Of a DNA stretch of 21,064 nt, positions 9,902 through 19,958 are shown in pieces. Under the pieces are notes generated by a model. That model was not told where the DNA came from and did no database searches. It saw nothing but the letters and a program-made list of their open reading frames with translations. Both the position numbers and the translations under genes were made by a program. How positions within the stretch are numbered: position 1 is the first letter of the stretch; every line of letters begins with the position of its first letter. Source of the DNA: a virus; IMG/VR virus record IMGVR_UViG_3300030012_001439, positions 1 to 21,064 of that record, one strand, 5' to 3'.

Positions 9902-10231
9902 TTATCTCATATCTTTTTTCATAGCTACTTTATTGCCCATAGGTTTACCTGCCATATAAGCTGTAGCCCCCATGTAAGCTGCTACAATACCAGTTTGAGC
10001 GATATAAAATAAGCCAAGTAAGTCTGCTAATGCTGCTACTCTTGTATCTGACATCATAGGTGTAAACAAAAAGACTGTAAACCCAATCATCATTACCATA
10101 GCAACCCAAGCCATTTTCTTTTGTGACTCTGCTTTTTCTTCACGTAGCTCTATTTCAAGCATACGTTCTTTCATTGATACTTCTTCTGCTGTGATTTTAC
10201 CATCACCATCAATGTCAAAATCTACTACCAT
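9902..10231 (-). CDS. EF-hand-like membrane protein
   Basis: A 109-residue protein whose ATG overlaps the portal stop codon (TAATG); GAGG lies 7 bases before the start. Residues 6-17 (DIDGDGKITAEE) match the 12-residue EF-hand calcium loop exactly: Asp at loop positions 1, 3 and 5, Gly at 6, Ile at 8, Glu at 12. Only five residues precede the loop, so the entering helix of a full EF-hand is missing. A charged helix follows (MKERMLEIELREEKAESQKK), then two membrane helices at about 41-60 and 72-95 and a basic tail. Two helices would suit a holin or an inner-membrane assembly factor. Calcium binding and role are inferred; I have only seen similar phage proteins listed as hypothetical or holin. 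Confidence 0.65.
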   Translation of the reverse strand: MVVDFDIDGDGKITAEEVSMKERMLEIELREEKAESQKKMAWVAMVMMIGFTVFLFTPMMSDTRVAALADLLGLFYIAQTGIVAAYMGATAYMAGKPMGNKVAMKKDMR

Positions 10232-12342
10232 TAAATATCCTCACCTGTATTAGCTGGAAAACCTTCTTCTCCTGGAGTTGGTGCTGTACCTGTACCTATA
10301 TTACCACCACCAGATCCTTGAGTATCACCTACTTGTACACCAGCAGGAGGCTCAGGTGTTTCTTCTACAGGAGCTTCTTCTGCTTGCATACCTTTAAGTA
10401 TCTCAGCCATAAGAGCAGCTTCTGACATATTGTTAGTAACTTTATCAGGGTCTAAATCCATAGACTCAGCTATCTCTCTTATAAGATAATCCATCTTAGT
10501 AAATGGTGCAAGCATTGGATTTTGAACTACACCCAAGAACTGCATTAGTCGTTGAGATCTTACTTCATTAGCCATTAAAGATGCTGTGCCTTGTGCTTTA
10601 ACCTCTAGGTCACCTTTAATAGAAGGATCAAAGTCAAATTGCATATTAAAATTAAAGAAAGATTTACCTAGTGGTGCTAAAAGATAATCATCTACATTTT
10701 TAATAACAGTACGTATGCTACCGTTGGCAGCAGACATAAGCATAGAAATACCAGAAGCAGTACGACCCACTCCTTGTATACCTGTCTGACCATGAGCGAA
10801 AGAAGGAAAGCCAGTTGATTCATCTGCTAATACTCTTGCTTTGTCAAACATCTGCATATTTTCATTAGATACGTTAGGAAACTTAGTTCCAAAGATAGAT
10901 TGACCAGGAGCACCTCCCTGCCTTGTAAAGACCTTGCCAGGATATACTGTTAGATCTTGACCTGGAGTCATATTTGTTTCATCTATTTCTATAATCAAGT
11001 TACCTGATAAAGCTGCATTATCTACAGCCATACGCATAAAACCATTCATCAGTGTTTGAGTGTCATCCATATTTTCAGCTAAACCTACACCAAAAAAGCT
11101 ATATGGGTTTACTTCATAAGGTACAGCATAGTAAGGTAAATACGTAGGTGTAAATGGATTCATAACTAAGCGTAAGACACGATTATTACATATCCATATA
11201 TTTACAGAAACTTGCTCAGAGTCTTGTAGTTCTTTAGGAATATCTACAGAATATTCTTCTAATAAATCTGTATCAATGTAACCCCAAAACTCTAATACTT
11301 CAAATCGGTCAGGATTAGTATCCTGAGCGTCATCTTGCATTAATGTTTCCCAATACTCAGAATAGTAATTCTCACCATTCATTACCGCATCATCAATAGC
11401 ATTCTCTCGAAAGAATGGTCTTTTCTTAAGACTACGTAGTTGAGACCTAGACATTTTATGTCTTTCAACAATATACTCTGCCTCATCCATGTTATTAGCA
11501 TCAGGATCTGGGTAAAAGTTCCAGATCGATACTGAAGAACACTTAGGAACTGTCTTAATAATAGGGCTATAGTTACCATCTGCATCCCAGTTAGGATACT
11601 CTTTGTCTATAGCAAATGGTCCTTTCATGATACCTGTGCCAAACAAAGAACATTCAAAAGCTGCTGTTCTAAGTTGTTTACTAGCGTTAGATTCTTCTAA
11701 CTGATCATGTATTTTCTTCTCCATCTTCTTAGCAGCTTCTAAAGCTGGAAAAAAGTTTACTGATTCTCCAGTAGAGCCAGTACCTTCAACTAACTTATCT
11801 TGAACTGGCTCAAACTTATCTTGTAACTCAGGAGATAGTTGATTAAATATCAGAGCTGTAGGTGATGGTTTAGGAGCTTCTATGGGAGGAGCAGGGGGCA
11901 TTGGAGGAGAACCAGGAGTGGGGGGAACTGCTGGAGCAGGTTGTTGATCTTTTTTAAAGTGAACAGCTGCTTGTATACCCTCTGGAAGGGTTGTAGGATC
12001 TATTGTTATAGGAAACTTATTGTTACCAAATAATACATCTACTAGTTGACTATATGCAGCTAATACTTTTGTTTTAGTAACTTTAACAAATACTCTAGAC
12101 TTTTCAGAGTTAGTAAAAGCTACGTCAGGTCCATAAAGACCACGATAGTTTCTGTAGGCTTGCAGCCATCTTTGTTCATCTGTATACCTATGATCTTTAG
12201 ACTTGTTGTATTTTTCACGTACAAGTTGTACAACACTGCCTACATCTTCATCTGCTGTACCTTCTTCATCTGAGTCTTCGATAAAAGAGGATTGAGCATC
12301 ATCCATGTAAAGCTCATCTATTCTTACTTCTTCTTCTGCCAT
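10231..12342 (-). CDS. Portal protein
   Basis: A 703-residue protein right after the terminase large subunit, with ATG at 12342 and an AGAGGAAG site before it. It has the size and order of podoviral (P22-type) portals: an acidic N-terminal arm, then DEQRWLQAYRNYRGLYGPDV and TKTKVLAAYSQLVDVLFGNN in the early helical region. A long central stretch includes YIVERHKMSRSQLRSLKKRP, ICNNRVLRLVMNPF, YYAVPYEVNPYSFFGVGLAE and NMDDTQTLMNGFMRMAVDN. The TGIQGVGRTASGISMLM motif sits before the barrel region. Residues about 134-162 form a Pro/Ala-rich insert, probably a flexible loop. The Glu/Gly/Pro-rich C-terminus is disordered. It should form the dodecameric DNA channel at one vertex and bind the terminase. 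Confidence 0.85.
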   Translation of the reverse strand: MAEEEVRIDELYMDDAQSSFIEDSDEEGTADEDVGSVVQLVREKYNKSKDHRYTDEQRWLQAYRNYRGLYGPDVAFTNSEKSRVFVKVTKTKVLAAYSQLVDVLFGNNKFPITIDPTTLPEGIQAAVHFKKDQQPAPAVPPTPGSPPMPPAPPIEAPKPSPTALIFNQLSPELQDKFEPVQDKLVEGTGSTGESVNFFPALEAAKKMEKKIHDQLEESNASKQLRTAAFECSLFGTGIMKGPFAIDKEYPNWDADGNYSPIIKTVPKCSSVSIWNFYPDPDANNMDEAEYIVERHKMSRSQLRSLKKRPFFRENAIDDAVMNGENYYSEYWETLMQDDAQDTNPDRFEVLEFWGYIDTDLLEEYSVDIPKELQDSEQVSVNIWICNNRVLRLVMNPFTPTYLPYYAVPYEVNPYSFFGVGLAENMDDTQTLMNGFMRMAVDNAALSGNLIIEIDETNMTPGQDLTVYPGKVFTRQGGAPGQSIFGTKFPNVSNENMQMFDKARVLADESTGFPSFAHGQTGIQGVGRTASGISMLMSAANGSIRTVIKNVDDYLLAPLGKSFFNFNMQFDFDPSIKGDLEVKAQGTASLMANEVRSQRLMQFLGVVQNPMLAPFTKMDYLIREIAESMDLDPDKVTNNMSEAALMAEILKGMQAEEAPVEETPEPPAGVQVGDTQGSGGGNIGTGTAPTPGEEGFPANTGEDI

Positions 12343-12357: not shown

Positions 12358-13926
12358 CTAATAACCAAATTTTGGATCAGCTTGTTGAAATCCACTACGA
12401 GATGCTGTAGGATTATAGTTCCAGATATTATTAGAACGTGCTCTAGTCATAAGACCATACCTAAGAGCATCATATCCATGATCTATAGGAGAGTTTGTAT
12501 CTATATCTTCTGAATTATTTTTATCTAAAGGTAGTGCAGGTAACTCACTTACAATGTTTCTGCAAGTATTAAAAAATACTAGTCTAGGTTCATCAGTAAG
12601 ATCATCTATTTGTAATCTTCTATGAACTTCATTTTTACCAGCTATTCTAGAACCTCTTGATCTATCTGATGGTCTCCAACGACAACCTTTCATAATCATT
12701 TGCTCTGCTAAACTAGGACCAGTATCTCCTCTTTTATGCCAAAGAGAAGAGTCTAAAACACCGTATCTTATTCTATCTTCTTGTTCTAAATCTAAAATTA
12801 AATCAGCTAAATCACTTGCTGTTGTTTTATTAACGTATAACTCTCTGTATACTATAAGCTGCTCTGATGGTGATACAGCAAACCATAAGACTGCTGTCAT
12901 AGAACCGTATCCATAGTCGCAAGCTCTAAAGCGAGTCCAAGAGCGCGGTATGTCAAATGGTTCAATCACGTGATCCTTGTAACTGAACTCTGTGAAGGCA
13001 GCACCCTCGGAAATTGACCAGTCACCTTCAAGAAGCTGTCTACGTTGATGCTCTGGTAAAGATAGTAGATTAGCTTCGTACATACCATCATCTGCTAGGT
13101 ATGGGTTATTAAATAGTGTAGCTGGTATAAACCTACGTTTAAATAAAGGTTCTCCAGCCCTAGAATGTCCTTGTGGTAATGTTAAAATATCACCATTTTC
13201 GTCTGTTGCCCAAAAAGACTCATTAGGTGGACAAGGGTCTACAAAGTATTTTTTAACCCATGTATGCCCAGGTCCACCTGGGTTGCTTGTAGCTCTCATA
13301 TAGAGAGGTAAACCTGACTTGCCTGTAGAACGTAACCTTGATCTCATATAGTTCCAAGGATAAGGTGTTGCCCATTGTGTAAGCTCATCAAAACCTATCC
13401 ATGAAAAAGCTTGACCTTGATAACGCATAACGTCATCTTCTCTATCTAGGTATGACATCCAAAGTGTAGCACCTGATGGACATACCCATGTCTTGTCTCT
13501 TTCCATAAACTTTATTCCTGGAATAGCTTTAGGATATAAAGTTTTAGATACTGATACAAGTTCTCTTAGTTCTTCTGTGCTACGTCTAACAAGTAGTCCT
13601 CTAAATAAAGAGTTATTAAAGTAACGTACAGGATCAGCAACCATTGCATAACTTTTACCACCACCTGCTGCCCCACCATATAAAACTTCTTGTTCTGTAG
13701 AGGCTAAGAAGTCTGTTTGTGGACCTGGATTAGGTTCAAAGACAATATCTTTAGTTGCTTGCTCTACATCTATATCAGGAGCTTTGACTGTCGCTGGAGT
13801 AGTATGTTCTTGTTCCTTGACCTCCAAGACGTTCTTCTTCAAGGACTTTCGCTTTGTTCGCGGCTTTTTCCGCTTCCCTTGAATAGATTCTGTAATGGCT
13901 CGCTGTCTTGCGCCTTCGTTCTTCAA
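12358..13926 (-). CDS. terL: Terminase large subunit (ATPase and nuclease)
   Basis: Packaging motor protein. The ATPase half shows Walker A GGAAGGGKS (residues 84-92 from the TTG used here), the helix RGLLVRRSTEELRELVSVS, Walker B WIGFDE followed by LTQW (about 176-185), and the coupling motif TSNPGGPGH. The C-terminal nuclease half shows FRACDYGYGS, YGVLDSSLW and DHGYDALRYGL, which supply the acidic residues expected of the RNase H-like fold. No ATG exists before Walker A. The longest frame starts at a TTG (13924-13926) with only GAGAG in front, and overlaps the upstream gene by 152 bases. The true N-terminus is therefore uncertain: TTG start, a later TTG, or entry by frameshift. Confidence 0.93.
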   Translation of the reverse strand: MKNEGARQRAITESIQGKRKKPRTKRKSLKKNVLEVKEQEHTTPATVKAPDIDVEQATKDIVFEPNPGPQTDFLASTEQEVLYGGAAGGGKSYAMVADPVRYFNNSLFRGLLVRRSTEELRELVSVSKTLYPKAIPGIKFMERDKTWVCPSGATLWMSYLDREDDVMRYQGQAFSWIGFDELTQWATPYPWNYMRSRLRSTGKSGLPLYMRATSNPGGPGHTWVKKYFVDPCPPNESFWATDENGDILTLPQGHSRAGEPLFKRRFIPATLFNNPYLADDGMYEANLLSLPEHQRRQLLEGDWSISEGAAFTEFSYKDHVIEPFDIPRSWTRFRACDYGYGSMTAVLWFAVSPSEQLIVYRELYVNKTTASDLADLILDLEQEDRIRYGVLDSSLWHKRGDTGPSLAEQMIMKGCRWRPSDRSRGSRIAGKNEVHRRLQIDDLTDEPRLVFFNTCRNIVSELPALPLDKNNSEDIDTNSPIDHGYDALRYGLMTRARSNNIWNYNPTASRSGFQQADPKFGY

Positions 13927-14233
13927 TAGAAACTCTCTTTTTTAATCCTGCATGGCTTATATATCTGCCAGATTTTTTACTTAACCAATCTGCTACAACT
14001 CTTAAAGAATACTCTCTTAGATATTGTTTAGCTTGATCAAGTAACTCTAGTTCTTCTGGGATAGGTATAAGTATATGCTTGTCATCAGGGTCTTGATAAT
14101 ATCCAAAAGGTATTGTTCTACCTACTCTTACTAAAGGATACCATTCACCATCTTTACCTTTTTTAGGTATCCGATACTTAACTGCTTTTCTTCGACCTTC
14201 TGATTTACCTGCTATTCTTTTTTTATCTGCCAT
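13775..14233 (-). CDS. Basic HTH-like packaging protein upstream of terL
   Basis: A 152-residue basic protein. The N-terminus is RKAVKYRIPKKGKDGEWYPL, followed by RTIPFGYYQDPDDKHILIPI. The middle (EELELLDQAKQYLREYSLRV, VADWLSKKSGRYISHAGLKK) has the helix-turn-helix look of a recombinase- or resolvase-type DNA-binding domain. A charged helix closes it (EERRRKTASHYRIYSREAEK). I associate this domain with the start of marine phage packaging modules, either as a second small subunit or as an N-terminal part of TerL. Its last 152 bases overlap the terL frame. The ATG at 14231-14233 directly abuts the -10 box at 14234-14239, so it must be translated from an upstream transcript or use another start. 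Confidence 0.7.
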   Translation of the reverse strand: MADKKRIAGKSEGRRKAVKYRIPKKGKDGEWYPLVRVGRTIPFGYYQDPDDKHILIPIPEELELLDQAKQYLREYSLRVVADWLSKKSGRYISHAGLKKRVSIEERRRKTASHYRIYSREAEKAANKAKVLEEERLGGQGTRTYYSSDSQSS

Positions 14234-14262
14234 ACTATAACATATTATTTAGTAATTGTCAA
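14234..14262 (-). promoter_or_regulatory. Leftward sigma70-type promoter in the packaging module
   Basis: Minus strand: TTGACA at 14257-14262, 17-base spacer, TATAGT at 14234-14239, with TG-T directly upstream (extended -10). The -35 box overlaps the stop of the terminase small-subunit candidate. The -10 box touches the ATG of the next gene, so a transcript from here would start inside that gene. It probably boosts terL, portal and head genes. Confidence 0.65.
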
Positions 14263-14621
14263 GAGTCTTTTTCTTTAGAAGGTAAAATAAATACTGGCTC
14301 TTTAGATGTTACTTCTATTTTATCTGTTTTTACTAAGCCAGCTCTGTCCATAATATCTTTAGCTGCAACCATACGTTCTTTAGCCCCTAATAAATCATCC
14401 TCTCCCATAACAGAATACATAGTATATGCAGCTTTAGTAGATGACTGTGCTATAAACTTTTTAGTTCTTTCATATATTTCATCAGATAGTTTTGATGTTA
14501 TTGCAGATGTTGCTGTATTTTTAGAGTATCCAGCTAATTTTTTAGCTAAAACAGGATCACCTTTTGCTTCATCAAATAAAACATCTAAAAATTTTTGTTC
14601 CATTTCTGTTAAGTTTGACAT
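14259..14621 (-). CDS. terS: Terminase small subunit candidate
   Basis: A 120-residue helical protein upstream of terL. The N-terminal part (EMEQKFLDVLFDEAKGDPVL, AKKLAGYSKNTATSAITSKL) has the short-helix and turn pattern of the DNA-binding half of small terminases. The middle (ERTKKFIAQSSTKAAYTMYS) suits the oligomerising helices. The C-terminus (MVAAKDIMDRAGLVKTDKIE, TSKEPVFILP) closely resembles the end of many phage small-terminase or packaging-recognition proteins I know, including the Pro-Val-Phe-Ile-Leu-Pro tail that contacts the large subunit. It should recognise the packaging site and load TerL. Family placement is from memory. Confidence 0.75.
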   Translation of the reverse strand: MSNLTEMEQKFLDVLFDEAKGDPVLAKKLAGYSKNTATSAITSKLSDEIYERTKKFIAQSSTKAAYTMYSVMGEDDLLGAKERMVAAKDIMDRAGLVKTDKIEVTSKEPVFILPSKEKDS

Positions 14622-14973: not shown

Positions 14974-15149
14974 TATTTACTTCCTTTCATTAGTTTTAAA
15001 AGTGTTTGTTGTAAACGATAATTTTCTGTTTCAAAACCATCTTCTTTATTCATACTTCCAACAGTGTTACCAAATACATCTATAATTTCTTTGTTTTTAA
15101 TAAAATAACCGTATTGAGCTAGTTTTTCTTCAAACTTCTTTAGTATCAT
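14973..15149 (-). CDS. Small hypothetical protein (58 aa)
   Basis: Minus-strand frame of 59 codons, ATG at 15147-15149 and TAA at 14973-14975. The start overlaps the upstream stop by four bases (ATGA) and the stop overlaps the next ATG (TAATG); this translational coupling on both sides is the main support. The protein starts MILKKFEEKLAQYGYFIKNK, has a short strand-turn piece (IIDVFGNTVGSM) and ends in a basic helix (NYRLQQTLLKLMKGSK). No family recognised. Confidence 0.6.
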   Translation of the reverse strand: MILKKFEEKLAQYGYFIKNKEIIDVFGNTVGSMNKEDGFETENYRLQQTLLKLMKGSK

Positions 15150-15445
15150 GTTTTTCTTTTTTTAGATTTAGTTGTTTTTCTTTTTACAGCTGAAACTCGT
15201 CTAGGCTTACCAGCAGGTTGACCAAGAGCTTTTTTCTCTTTTACTTTTTTAGCCTTCTCAGCTGAAGACATTTCTTTAGTTGTTTTAGGTGTCTTACTGC
15301 TTATTCTTTTAGAAGGGCGACAGTAAGGTGTACCCCTACCATCACCCTTCTTACGTCCACAAGCCTTGCCTGTGCTAACGTCTTTCCAGTCTTCTTTAAA
15401 CCAACGCTTAAGAGCTAGACCAGCTTTTGTTTTACGAACAGCCAC
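15146..15445 (-). CDS. Very basic protein with a Cys/Arg/Gly core (DUF5872-like)
   Basis: A 99-residue protein started by GTG at 15443-15445, one base overlapping the upstream TAG, with GAGG eight bases upstream. The first half (LALKRWFKEDWKDVSTGKAC, GRKKGDGRGTPYCRPSKRIS, SKTPKTTKEM) matches a domain of unknown function that I associate with marine phages and large eukaryotic DNA viruses (I believe DUF5872). Two Cys residues flank the GRKKGDGRGTPY core. The second half is a Lys/Arg tail (AVKRKTTKSKKRKT). The composition suggests nucleic-acid binding; the role is unknown. Confidence 0.65.
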   Translation of the reverse strand: MAVRKTKAGLALKRWFKEDWKDVSTGKACGRKKGDGRGTPYCRPSKRISSKTPKTTKEMSSAEKAKKVKEKKALGQPAGKPRRVSAVKRKTTKSKKRKT

Positions 15446-15602: not shown

Positions 15603-15965
15603 CTACTTTTTCTTACCACCTTTTGCTCCACCTTTAGCCATACCTTTTTTCATCATAGCTCCACCCATAGCCATACCCTTTTTCTTAGGATTGTCTACAG
15701 AGCTTTTAACCATGCCACCTACATTAAAGGTCATAACCTTACCACCTTTAGCATATGCTTTCTTCTTAGGCATCATAGCTCCACCTTTAGCCATACCTTT
15801 TTTCTTTTTAGCCATACCACCTTTATTCATTTTGCCTTTACCATCAGCAGCGTAAAAAGGAACCATTTTTCCATCTGGACCTTTTACCATTTTTAAGCCA
15901 CCTTTAGACATGCCTTTCTTTTTCATTTTGGCTCCACCCATTGAATAACCTTTTTTCTTCATCAT
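15603..15965 (-). CDS. Met/Lys/Gly repeat protein
   Basis: A 120-residue low-complexity protein with about 35 Lys and 19 Met. It is built from degenerate copies of KKKGMAKGG and KGGAMM: GYSMGGAKM, KKKGMSKGG, KKKKGMAKGGAMM, KKKAYAKGG, KKKGMAMGGAMM, KKGMAKGGAKGGKKK. A non-repeat island (VKGPDGKMVPFYAADGKG) and MTFNVGGMVKSS break the array. The ATG overlaps the upstream stop by four bases (ATGA). No globular fold is expected. The repeats could neutralise packaged DNA or bind RNA or membranes. I have seen similar Met-Lys-Gly proteins in marine phages but know no function. Confidence 0.7.
   Translation of the reverse strand: MMKKKGYSMGGAKMKKKGMSKGGLKMVKGPDGKMVPFYAADGKGKMNKGGMAKKKKGMAKGGAMMPKKKAYAKGGKVMTFNVGGMVKSSVDNPKKKGMAMGGAMMKKGMAKGGAKGGKKK
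15603..15965 (-). repeat. Degenerate coding repeat (KKKGMAKGG units)
   Basis: At DNA level the same gene carries repeated blocks such as CCACCTTTAGCCATACC on the plus strand (for example near 15629, 15782 and, diverged, 15898). The units vary in length and codon choice, so this looks like old internal duplication under amino-acid selection rather than a fresh tandem expansion. Confidence 0.55.
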
Positions 15966-16660: not shown

Positions 16661-16951
16661 TTATTTGTTATGCTCTTTTTTAAGCTGTGCTTTAGCTGAT
16701 TTAAACGCTGCTGCTATAGCTGTCTTACCCATTACCTTAGCTCTTTGTTCAGCTACAGTAAGTATTTGGATCTTTCGAGCATATGGTTTCTTAATCTTTC
16801 TTACTTTTGCTATTGTAGCTCTTGCATCAGCCATTGTAGCAAATTTAATTGATACAGTATCTTTAGGGTTTTCATCTGTATAAAGTCTACGTCCAGAACC
16901 TTTAGGTTTTTTTCCTGTACCTACTTTAGGATCTCTTTTTCTTTTTGCCAT
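16661..16951 (-). CDS. Basic protein, DUF5824-like
   Basis: I choose the ATG at 16949-16951 over a TTG two codons upstream, giving 96 residues that begin MAKRKRDPKVGTGKKPKGSG. The middle reads RRLYTDENPKDTVSIKFATM, ADARATIAKVRKIKKPYARK and IQILTVAEQRAKVMGKTAI. This is a recognisable domain of unknown function that I associate with marine phages and algal or giant viruses (I believe DUF5824). It is strongly basic with a Lys-rich tail. The start lies inside the last 26 bases of the upstream mini-gene. Role unknown; nucleic-acid binding is plausible. Confidence 0.7.
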   Translation of the reverse strand: MAKRKRDPKVGTGKKPKGSGRRLYTDENPKDTVSIKFATMADARATIAKVRKIKKPYARKIQILTVAEQRAKVMGKTAIAAAFKSAKAQLKKEHNK

Positions 16952-17063
16952 TACCAACTAAACCTTTTAAAGTCTTTGCCTGACCTTGGTGTGTTTTTAC
17001 AGCTTTGTTTAAACCTTTTATAACACCTTTTACTTTTTTCTTATTACCTTTTGATAAAGCCAT
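16926..17063 (-). CDS. Tiny Lys-rich protein (45 aa)
   Basis: ATG at 17061-17063 with AAGG eight bases upstream; TAA at 16926-16928. The product, beginning MALSKGNKKKVKGVIKGLNK and continuing AVKTHQGQAKTLKGL, is almost entirely a basic amphipathic helix with a KKKKRS end. It overlaps the next gene by 26 bases in another frame. The good ribosome site and tiling of the gap between neighbours support it. No known function. Confidence 0.6.
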   Translation of the reverse strand: MALSKGNKKKVKGVIKGLNKAVKTHQGQAKTLKGLVGNGKKKKRS

Positions 17064-18399: not shown

Positions 18400-18765
18400 T
18401 TATTTATATTTACTTTTTTTACCAAATAAAGATAATATAAAGTTCATTATACCTCTACCTATTTCTGTAGGTGTTGGTAAAAGCCAACCTAAAAGTAATA
18501 AAAGCATTACCCAAGGTGGTATGTTTGTATTTATAATATCTAATCTTCCCACTGATCCTGTTTCTACTTCTTTTATTACTTCAGTTTGAATAACATCTCT
18601 GCCTGCAGTAGCCTCTTCAGTCTGCTCAACACTCACCCCTGATTGTCTATTCTCTGCACCTATTTGTGCATTGCTATTTACAGTTGGACCATCTGAACTT
18701 CCAAAGGGAATTAGAGACATAAGACCACACCCAGACAATAAAAAACAAAGAACTAACCATCTCAT
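18400..18765 (-). CDS. Lipoprotein with C-terminal membrane helix, possible u-spanin
   Basis: A 121-residue protein. The N-terminus MRWLVLCFLLSGC is a lipoprotein signal with lipobox Leu-Ser-Gly-Cys13. The mature part is a polar, Gln/Glu/Thr-rich segment (VNSNAQIGAENRQSGVSVEQ, then DVIQTEVIKEVETGSVGRLD). After a Pro-Pro it enters a membrane helix (WVMLLLLLGWLLP, about residue 87-99) and ends amphipathic and Lys-rich. An outer-membrane lipid anchor plus an inner-membrane helix in one chain is the design of unimolecular spanins such as T1 gp11, which fuse the two membranes at lysis. Position after endolysin and holin-like genes fits. The function is inferred. Confidence 0.65.
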   Translation of the reverse strand: MRWLVLCFLLSGCGLMSLIPFGSSDGPTVNSNAQIGAENRQSGVSVEQTEEATAGRDVIQTEVIKEVETGSVGRLDIINTNIPPWVMLLLLLGWLLPTPTEIGRGIMNFILSLFGKKSKYK

Positions 18766-18992
18766 TATTTATCTCTCAATGCTTGTTCTATATTATCTAG
18801 TTTATTAAAAATTGCCTTAACAGTTTCTTTTAGCTCTTTCATTTCTCTATCATAGGCTAATGTAGCAGATTCATATTTTGCTTGTAGTACAGCTATATCT
18901 CTTTCATTTTTAGTTGACTTCATAAATAAAAACCAAACAACAAAAGCAAGAGGTGCAGCTAACCACTGTATTATGAATTGAAGCATTTCCAT
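18765..18992 (-). CDS. Holin-like one-helix membrane protein
   Basis: Start taken at the ATG at 18990-18992, one base after the upstream stop and with AGAGG at about eight bases (75 residues, MEMLQFIIQWLAAPLAFVVW). A longer frame would run back into the previous gene. One membrane helix (residues 4-24) is followed by a charged coiled coil (KNERDIAVLQAKYESATLAY, then KELKETVKAIFNKLDNIEQA). Position between the endolysin region and the spanin candidate suggests a holin or holin regulator, but no catalytic or signature motif exists, so this is a context-based call. Confidence 0.6.
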   Translation of the reverse strand: MEMLQFIIQWLAAPLAFVVWFLFMKSTKNERDIAVLQAKYESATLAYDREMKELKETVKAIFNKLDNIEQALRDK

Positions 18993-18993
18993 G

Positions 18994-19197
18994 CTATTGC
19001 CTCTGATCTTTATGGTAGCAATCAAACTGCAAGCCTAGATATTTATTCTCTTCATATTTTTTCCAGTTTGCATTTTGAGCAATTATTTGACACTGTTGCT
19101 CAGTAAACAGCTCTTGCATAATATACTGATTGCCTGTGTATACCCACTCTTCTCCAGTGTTACCCCACATACTTATAACTAATAAAAACTCTTTCAT
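18994..19197 (-). CDS. Small conserved protein in the lysis cluster
   Basis: A 67-residue protein overlapping the endolysin stop (TAATG). The motif SMWGNTGEEWVYTGNQYIMQ, then FTEQQCQIIAQNANWKKYEE and YLGLQFDCYHK is one I recognise from marine phages near lysis genes. Two Cys residues (about 36 and 60) and several Trp/Tyr suggest a small compact fold, perhaps with a disulphide. The first ten residues are hydrophobic but too short for a clear signal peptide. Function unknown. Confidence 0.65.
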   Translation of the reverse strand: MKEFLLVISMWGNTGEEWVYTGNQYIMQELFTEQQCQIIAQNANWKKYEENKYLGLQFDCYHKDQRQ

Positions 19198-19664
19198 TAC
19201 ATTAATTCAAAATGAGGTGCATCAATAAAGGGTCTACGACCTTGAGATCTTCTAAGATCTACATAAGCCATCATAGCGTCTTCTGCACTTCCTGGATAGG
19301 ATCTTATATCTCCTTCAGACCATGCAGCACCCCATTTAATAGAAGCACCTGTTTCTCTTGCTGCTTCAGCAAATGCATCACAGATATCATCATATAAATT
19401 TAACTCCCATGATACATCTGATCCTATATAGGCTACAACATCAACTGCATGGCTAAAGCCATCATCTTGTAGTAAATGCTTACTAGCCATTGTTTGAGAT
19501 CTACCAGCCGCTACATTAGCTTTTTGTTCCTCTAAAGTTCTTACACCTTGAGTAACTCCAAAGTCTACCTTTGTAAGTTGGATAGCTCTTTCAACAACTC
19601 CTGTCATTGCAGGATGAACACCTTCTAGTTTATCTAATGATCTTTGGCTTAATCTAAAAGTCAA
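19197..19664 (-). CDS. Endolysin, M15-type peptidoglycan peptidase
   Basis: A 155-residue protein with the pattern of VanY/T5-type M15 peptidases: RLSQRSLDKLEGVHPAM at the start, TQGVRTLEEQKANVAAG around residue 39, then SKHLLQDDGFSHAVDVV with His63 and Asp75, and the terminal DAPHFELM with His151. These three are the expected zinc ligands. It should cut peptide bonds in peptidoglycan cross-links to release progeny. Translation starts at TTG (19662-19664), preceded by AGGAGCTGGGAG; the next Met (residue 20) would delete the conserved N-terminus. No signal peptide is visible, so it depends on a holin. Confidence 0.88.
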   Translation of the reverse strand: MTFRLSQRSLDKLEGVHPAMTGVVERAIQLTKVDFGVTQGVRTLEEQKANVAAGRSQTMASKHLLQDDGFSHAVDVVAYIGSDVSWELNLYDDICDAFAEAARETGASIKWGAAWSEGDIRSYPGSAEDAMMAYVDLRRSQGRRPFIDAPHFELM

Positions 19665-19916
19665 TTACTCCCAGCTCCTTTTTCTTTGTGGATCTAGAAC
19701 ATCATTTGCTGAAAGCATACCTTCAAGGTACATAGATCTTTCTATTCTGTCTAGAGATTCCCAGTTGTCAGTATCTTGATAGTATTTCTCTCTGGTATAA
19801 AAGACTTCACTTCGGGGTATGTGCATCTTAGCTAAACTTCTAATATCATCGCCAGCTAGAGCAAGATAGAATTGAGAAATAATATCGTCTTGTTTGTGAG
19901 TCTTTAGTTTAGTCAT
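19665..19916 (-). CDS. First gene of the late operon, unknown function
   Basis: An 83-residue protein from the ATG at 19914-19916; a longer frame starting at TTG (19956-19958) would lie inside the promoter -35 box and is rejected. The body is helical and acidic-to-neutral (HKQDDIISQFYLALAGDDIR, SLAKMHIPRSEVFYTREKYY, QDTDNWESLDRIERSMYLEG). I have seen the MHIPRSEVFY motif in marine phages beside endolysin genes, without an assigned function. The promoter at 19930-19958 would start RNA only about seven bases before this ATG, so the first gene may be translated almost leaderless. Confidence 0.6.
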   Translation of the reverse strand: MTKLKTHKQDDIISQFYLALAGDDIRSLAKMHIPRSEVFYTREKYYQDTDNWESLDRIERSMYLEGMLSANDVLDPQRKRSWE

Positions 19917-19929
19917 TTGAATAGCTACA

Positions 19930-19958
19930 GTTATACCATATGTTTTTAAGATTGTCAA
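19930..19958 (-). promoter_or_regulatory. Strong proximal late promoter
   Basis: Minus strand: TTGACA at 19953-19958, 17-base spacer, TATAAC at 19930-19935, with TG-G directly before it (extended -10). It shares TATGGTATAACTGTA with the capsid promoter. The predicted start is near 19923, only seven or so bases before the first gene. Confidence 0.85.

Follow-up and report, generated by a model that had tools for sequence, protein, structure and literature searches.

An out-of-frame overlap between an HTH-like gene and the large terminase subunit gene in HMO-2011-type marine phages

The terL locus and its relatives

The window analysed here is a 21-kb virus record (IMG/VR IMGVR_UViG_3300030012_001439; 21,064 nucleotides) that is related to HMO-2011-type phages. 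On its minus strand lie, in this order, terS, an ORF for an HTH-like protein, terL and a gene at the portal position (Table 1). The TerL product is a homologous ATPase with a Walker A motif; it is placed in the HMO-2011/CRP clade of the TerL tree and is 77% and 76% identical over 450 aa to the TerL proteins of roseophages CRP-13 and CRP-9, respectively (tblastn; 76.7% for CRP-13). A preliminary description, made from the letters of this DNA alone, had remarked that terL has no ATG before its Walker A motif and that it overlaps the HTH-like ORF in the +1 frame, and both observations were borne out. The terL frame opens at 13941, after an in-frame TAA that stands 18 bases before a TTG, and the first ATG, at 13644, comes just past Walker A. 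Counted from this TTG to the end of the HTH-like ORF, 152 nt are shared; two other TTGs occur further downstream in the terL frame, at 13842 and 13827. The codons CGA, AGG and CGC, which had been singled out as odd in the upstream frame, are consistent with the base composition, the GC content of the overlap being 0.47 and thereby higher than in the HTH-only part (0.34) or the remaining terL (0.38).

Table 1. Features of the terminase locus in the window
Feature	Position	Strand	Basis or remark
terL, large terminase subunit	12358..13926	-	522 aa if begun at TTG 13926; PHROG 979, E 1e-58; Pfam Terminase_6N, E 4.5e-05
HTH-like protein, 152 aa, with C-terminal charged helix	13775..14233	-	hhalign to fused TerL N-termini; AlphaFold2
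Predicted dual-coding overlap, 152 nt	13775..13926	-	+1 stop in 0 of 325 relatives; HTH third-position divergence halved
Putative terL start codon TTG	13924..13926	-	position 11 of family alignment
Shine-Dalgarno-like AGAGAG, 6 nt 5' of TTG	13933..13938	-	duplex energy -4.4 kcal/mol; modest evidence
In-frame stop TAA, upstream limit of terL frame	13942..13944	-	sequence inspection
Walker A motif of TerL, GGAAGGGKS	13651..13677	-	sequence inspection
terS, small terminase subunit, upstream of HTH-like gene	14259..14621	-	PHROG 2538 terminase small subunit, E 7.7e-08
Gene at portal position	10231..12342	-	gene order

Elsewhere in the window, the first start codon is GTG or TTG in the minus-strand ORFs at 15146-15445, 16661-16957, 18765-19025, 19197-19664 and 19665-19958, and non-ATG starts may therefore not be exceptional in this phage. 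A short minus-strand ORF at 15603-15965 consists of repeats rich in lysine, glycine and methionine (KKKGMAKGGA-like).

Relatives were drawn from seventeen annotated phage regions and six IMG/VR scans, which together gave 422 distinct junction regions. The IMG/VR loci were chosen by HTH or TerL protein similarity, with overlap being no criterion, and the counts given here are of distinct loci that, having been retrieved by similarity, are partly non-independent. The two genes overlap in 325 distinct loci, are fused in 73 (by automatic scoring) and abut in HTVC115P; 20 loci were too short to score, and three (L323, L371 and L373) carry a lone frame break that is absent from their sister loci and is probably a one-base assembly error. 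In every one of the 325 overlapping loci terL stands in the +1 frame relative to the HTH frame, and the overlap is also present in ten isolate or named genomes. The alignment with related phages proposed in the preliminary description recovered both in-frame fused proteins and a conserved overlap, and its statement that some marine TerL proteins carry such an N-terminal domain was right (CRP-3, CRP-212, CRP-235 and CRP-738, and also phiM6 and RHph_N3_19).

Three readings of the junction had been offered at the outset: a dual-coding overlap with a TTG start, a programmed +1 frameshift, and a one-base error. Only the first has stood, on the grounds of the start codon, the two-frame constraint and the 325 loci. 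The last of them holds that an assembly or sequencing error has broken a gene that is truly fused, as it is in CRP-3. Fused homologues do exist, and the breaks in L323, L371 and L373 are just what such errors look like, but an error cannot recur across 325 distinct sequences and ten isolate or named genomes that all have the same +1 layout. Furthermore, the window falls inside the overlap clade of the TerL tree rather than the fused clade, and both frames show purifying selection (see below). We regard an error as refuted for the family and as having next to no chance of being the explanation.

The terL start codon and constraint on both frames

Position counts rest on the HTH protein alignment, with HTH codons numbered from the I of the ISHxGL motif. 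An ATG, GTG or TTG follows the last terL-frame stop by HTH position 12 in 325 of 325 loci, nearly always at positions 2-11. It stands at position 11 in 215 of these (TTG in 133, ATG in 81 and GTG in 1), and the loci that start elsewhere do so mostly at position 8 (GTG) or 2 (ATG). Stops in the terL frame are common at positions 3, 5 and 9 and number zero from position 11 through the overlap end in the 325 loci. The predicted terL products open with MS, MN, MK or similar. At position 11 the HTH gene encodes Asn by AAT in 65 of 65 cases (48% elsewhere), Val by GTT in 16 of 17 (32% elsewhere) and Leu by CTT in 40 of 43 (23% elsewhere), and ATA is used for Ile in 0 of 106 (46% elsewhere), a bias which suggests that HTH codon choice has been bent toward making the terL start. 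Mapped onto a tree of 162 TerLs, the start state shows 11 changes and not one loss. The window lies within a supported clade of phages with GTG at position 8, yet itself has TTG at position 11, and from the conservation of the start region we infer that its exact start is TTG 13926. A putative ribosome binding site provides modest additional evidence, the family mean of the Shine-Dalgarno duplex energy being -4.5 kcal/mol versus -2.6 after synonymous recoding.

When the window's HTH gene was recoded synonymously, a start in place and an open +1 frame were both kept in about 1.3% of trials; over the family the average was about 10%, versus 325 of 325 observed. These low rates argue that the overlap is more than chance. 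The HTH frame is also unusually quiet where it is shared: over 113 independent close pairs, its third-position divergence was 0.111 within the overlap versus 0.228 outside. The value is already low (0.076) in the first 45 nt of the overlap, which indicates that the constraint begins at the start codon. For HMO/CRP-type loci only, the overlap/outside ratio was 0.53 (CI 0.45-0.61); in HTVC033P-like phages, where the ratio was 0.28, the terL frame dominates the overlap and the charged helix seems to be TerL's. In the fused relatives, used as a control, the stretch before the TerL core varies freely (third-position divergence 0.238), and 72 of 73 fused loci have +1 stops compared with 0 of 325 overlap loci. 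A point against the dual-coding reading is that the +1-frame product is more variable within the overlap (aa difference 0.161) than is the TerL core (0.022). As far as sequence comparison can tell, purifying selection acts on both frames in the overlap.

These measurements bear on the possibility that the true terL start is downstream of TTG 13926 or near the overlap end (e.g. TTG 13842 or 13827), with the open +1 frame being a by-product of the charged helix. Such a helix is naturally poor in +1 stops, and the deposited terL starts of CRP-345, CRP-603 and CRP-207 are well past the conserved site. However, recoding leaves the +1 frame open in only 26% of cases on average, and in 9% for the window, against 325 of 325 observed; the constraint begins directly after the upstream start; and the later TTGs are unconserved (82 of 325 loci at position 39 and 52 of 312 at position 44). 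A downstream start is, in our judgement, very unlikely.

A programmed +1 frameshift, in which ribosomes translating the HTH gene would slip forward by one base within the overlap to give a fusion resembling the single-ORF TerL of CRP-3-type phages, agrees with a frame relation that is +1 without exception and with the covalent joining of the HTH domain to TerL in the sister clade. Our reasons for rejecting it are that: (i) the second ORF is not start-less, a start codon being kept in all 325 loci; (ii) constraint on the terL frame begins at that codon and not at a later shift site, and the 111 loci with an in-frame stop at position 9 would confine any shift to within about two codons of the start codon; (iii) in HTVC115P, terL is an independent ORF that has an ATG start and (iv) no shift motif is conserved in the overlap or around the HTH stop, where no heptamer exceeded 47% at any aligned position and where, in place of a conserved stop context, 89 different last-codon/stop contexts were found. 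We would leave this mechanism a slim chance at most.

The two proteins and a model for their expression

By hhalign (99.1%, E 1.3e-18), residues 38-98 of the upstream protein, its HTH domain, match the N-termini of fused TerLs as far as ISHxGL, the motif at which the terL start region opens. AlphaFold2, run on an alignment built from the retrieved loci with rows from annotated phage records left out, predicted with confidence a small domain and, after it, a single long helix (mean pLDDT 81.5; helices 59-71, 77-88 and 94-137). Pfam and PHROGs searches of the HTH-like protein gave no confident family, and a PDB fold search gave no match at E <0.001, the weak best being a serine recombinase (E 0.49). 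We rejected an assignment to the serine-recombinase family 'Recombinase' (PF07508) as mere resemblance, given this PDB result and a score for the fused homologue of 13.4 bits versus a cut-off of 21.1. A BFVD search found close viral homologues of the HTH-like protein, with W8FPY0 at E 0.0033; the 668-aa length of W8FPY0 is that of the CHOED TerL, its name being absent from the BFVD output. The HTH-like protein is probably a detached TerL domain and, because relatives carry that domain covalently on TerL, the two are likely to be partners. Read in the terL frame, the overlap encodes a tail that is basic, residues 13-40 having a mean net charge of +7.7.

We think it highly probable that a separate HTH-like gene and terL overlap out of frame and that terL initiates internally. 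The frame relation, the conserved start and the homology to the fused domain can be read from the aligned genomes, and by the same sequence evidence the dual-coding overlap is conserved across a large group of phages that are abundant in the sea. On this reading, the HTH-like gene would be translated as far as its stop at 13775, and TerL would be made in the +1 frame from a start of its own within that gene (TTG 13926 in the window). Initiation at the TTG would have to be fresh, since the HTH stop is 150 nt downstream and ribosomes that terminate there cannot provide it by reinitiation. The shared 152 nt would then specify both the charged helix and tail of the HTH-like protein and an N-terminal TerL tail that is basic and probably flexible. 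In packaging, the HTH domain would probably be a detached subunit that works alongside TerL. In favor of internal initiation, the genes of HTVC115P abut and TerL there has its own ATG; speaking against it, the window start is a TTG with a modest Shine-Dalgarno match. It is improbable that, beside internal initiation, a few ribosomes also shift +1 near the overlap start to give a covalent HTH-TerL fusion; if they did, these phages would have two TerL forms, one resembling the fused TerL of their sister phages.

The arrangement has consequences for annotation. The terL 5' end is inconsistent in public records because the true start, in many cases a TTG or GTG, is probably located within the preceding gene. 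In CRP-603, CRP-345 and CRP-207 the deposited terL starts are inconsistent, often being downstream of the conserved start, and for CRP-207 the annotation covers no more than a 52-aa fragment of the HTH gene, the frame being open further upstream. TerL serves as a marker gene for this group, which is dominant among marine phages. In addition, the natural series, in which the genes are fused, abut or overlap in either of two ways, could serve as a model for the splitting of a domain from an essential motor protein, for the overprinting of a new basic tail on an old helix and for start-codon turnover under two-frame constraint.

Comparison with known systems and history of the join

In the TerL tree the overlapping HMO/CRP clade is sister to the fused CRP-3/Rhizobium clade, with HTVC033P-like overlaps and HTVC115P outside both. 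Grouping all split forms into one clade was rejected (AU p 0.006), which suggests that the domain split at least twice, or split and then re-fused, although HTVC115P and the outgroup are on long branches and caution is called for. That relatives are variously fused, abutting or overlapping likewise indicates that the join has been altered at least twice. The long TerLs of more distant Aeromonas, Vibrio and Pseudoalteromonas phages carry what looks like a comparable domain at the N-terminus and were taken as fused.

HMO-2011, CRP-1, -2, -9, -13, -207, -345 and -603 and ctYwJ313 share the gene order, +1 overlap and start region of the window; the window differs from its nearest HMO-2011-type relatives in having TTG at position 11 where they have GTG at position 8. 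CRP-3, -212, -235 and -738, phiM6 and RHph_N3_19 have, like the window, a homologous HTH domain beside a homologous TerL, but in these CRP-3-type and Rhizobium phages the two form a single fused ORF of 619-659 aa and the corresponding +1 frame is not open. In HTVC033P and HTVC115P the HTH domain and TerL are separate genes, as in the window, and the HTVC033P overlap is likewise +1 (terL start ATG at position 2). Unlike in the window, the charged helix of these HTVC-type pelagiphages seems to sit in the TerL frame; in HTVC115P, where the HTH gene (2678-2935) and terL (1062-2678) share one base, it lies at the start of TerL.

In the part of the literature covered, we found no report of a terL overlap, frameshift or split terminase of this arrangement, and papers on HMO-2011-type phages discuss TerL with the overlap unmentioned. 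The HMO-2011 GenBank record already gives both ORFs, overlapping by 122 nt, so that the arrangement was visible, yet we found no remark on it. Our search on terminase overlaps and frameshifts returned only a possible bypass in Hau3, whose terminase gene is also said to be read from two frames; there the bypass is proposed at a UUA codon, whereas the second frame of the window has its own start codon. Overlapping genes are already known as a kind. Viral overlapping genes from phiX174 on (review PMC8227390) include, like the window, same-strand out-of-frame dual coding with an internal start. Unlike viral overlaps in general (PMC8227390), the one described here lies at the junction of a domain and a TerL that are fused in sister phages.
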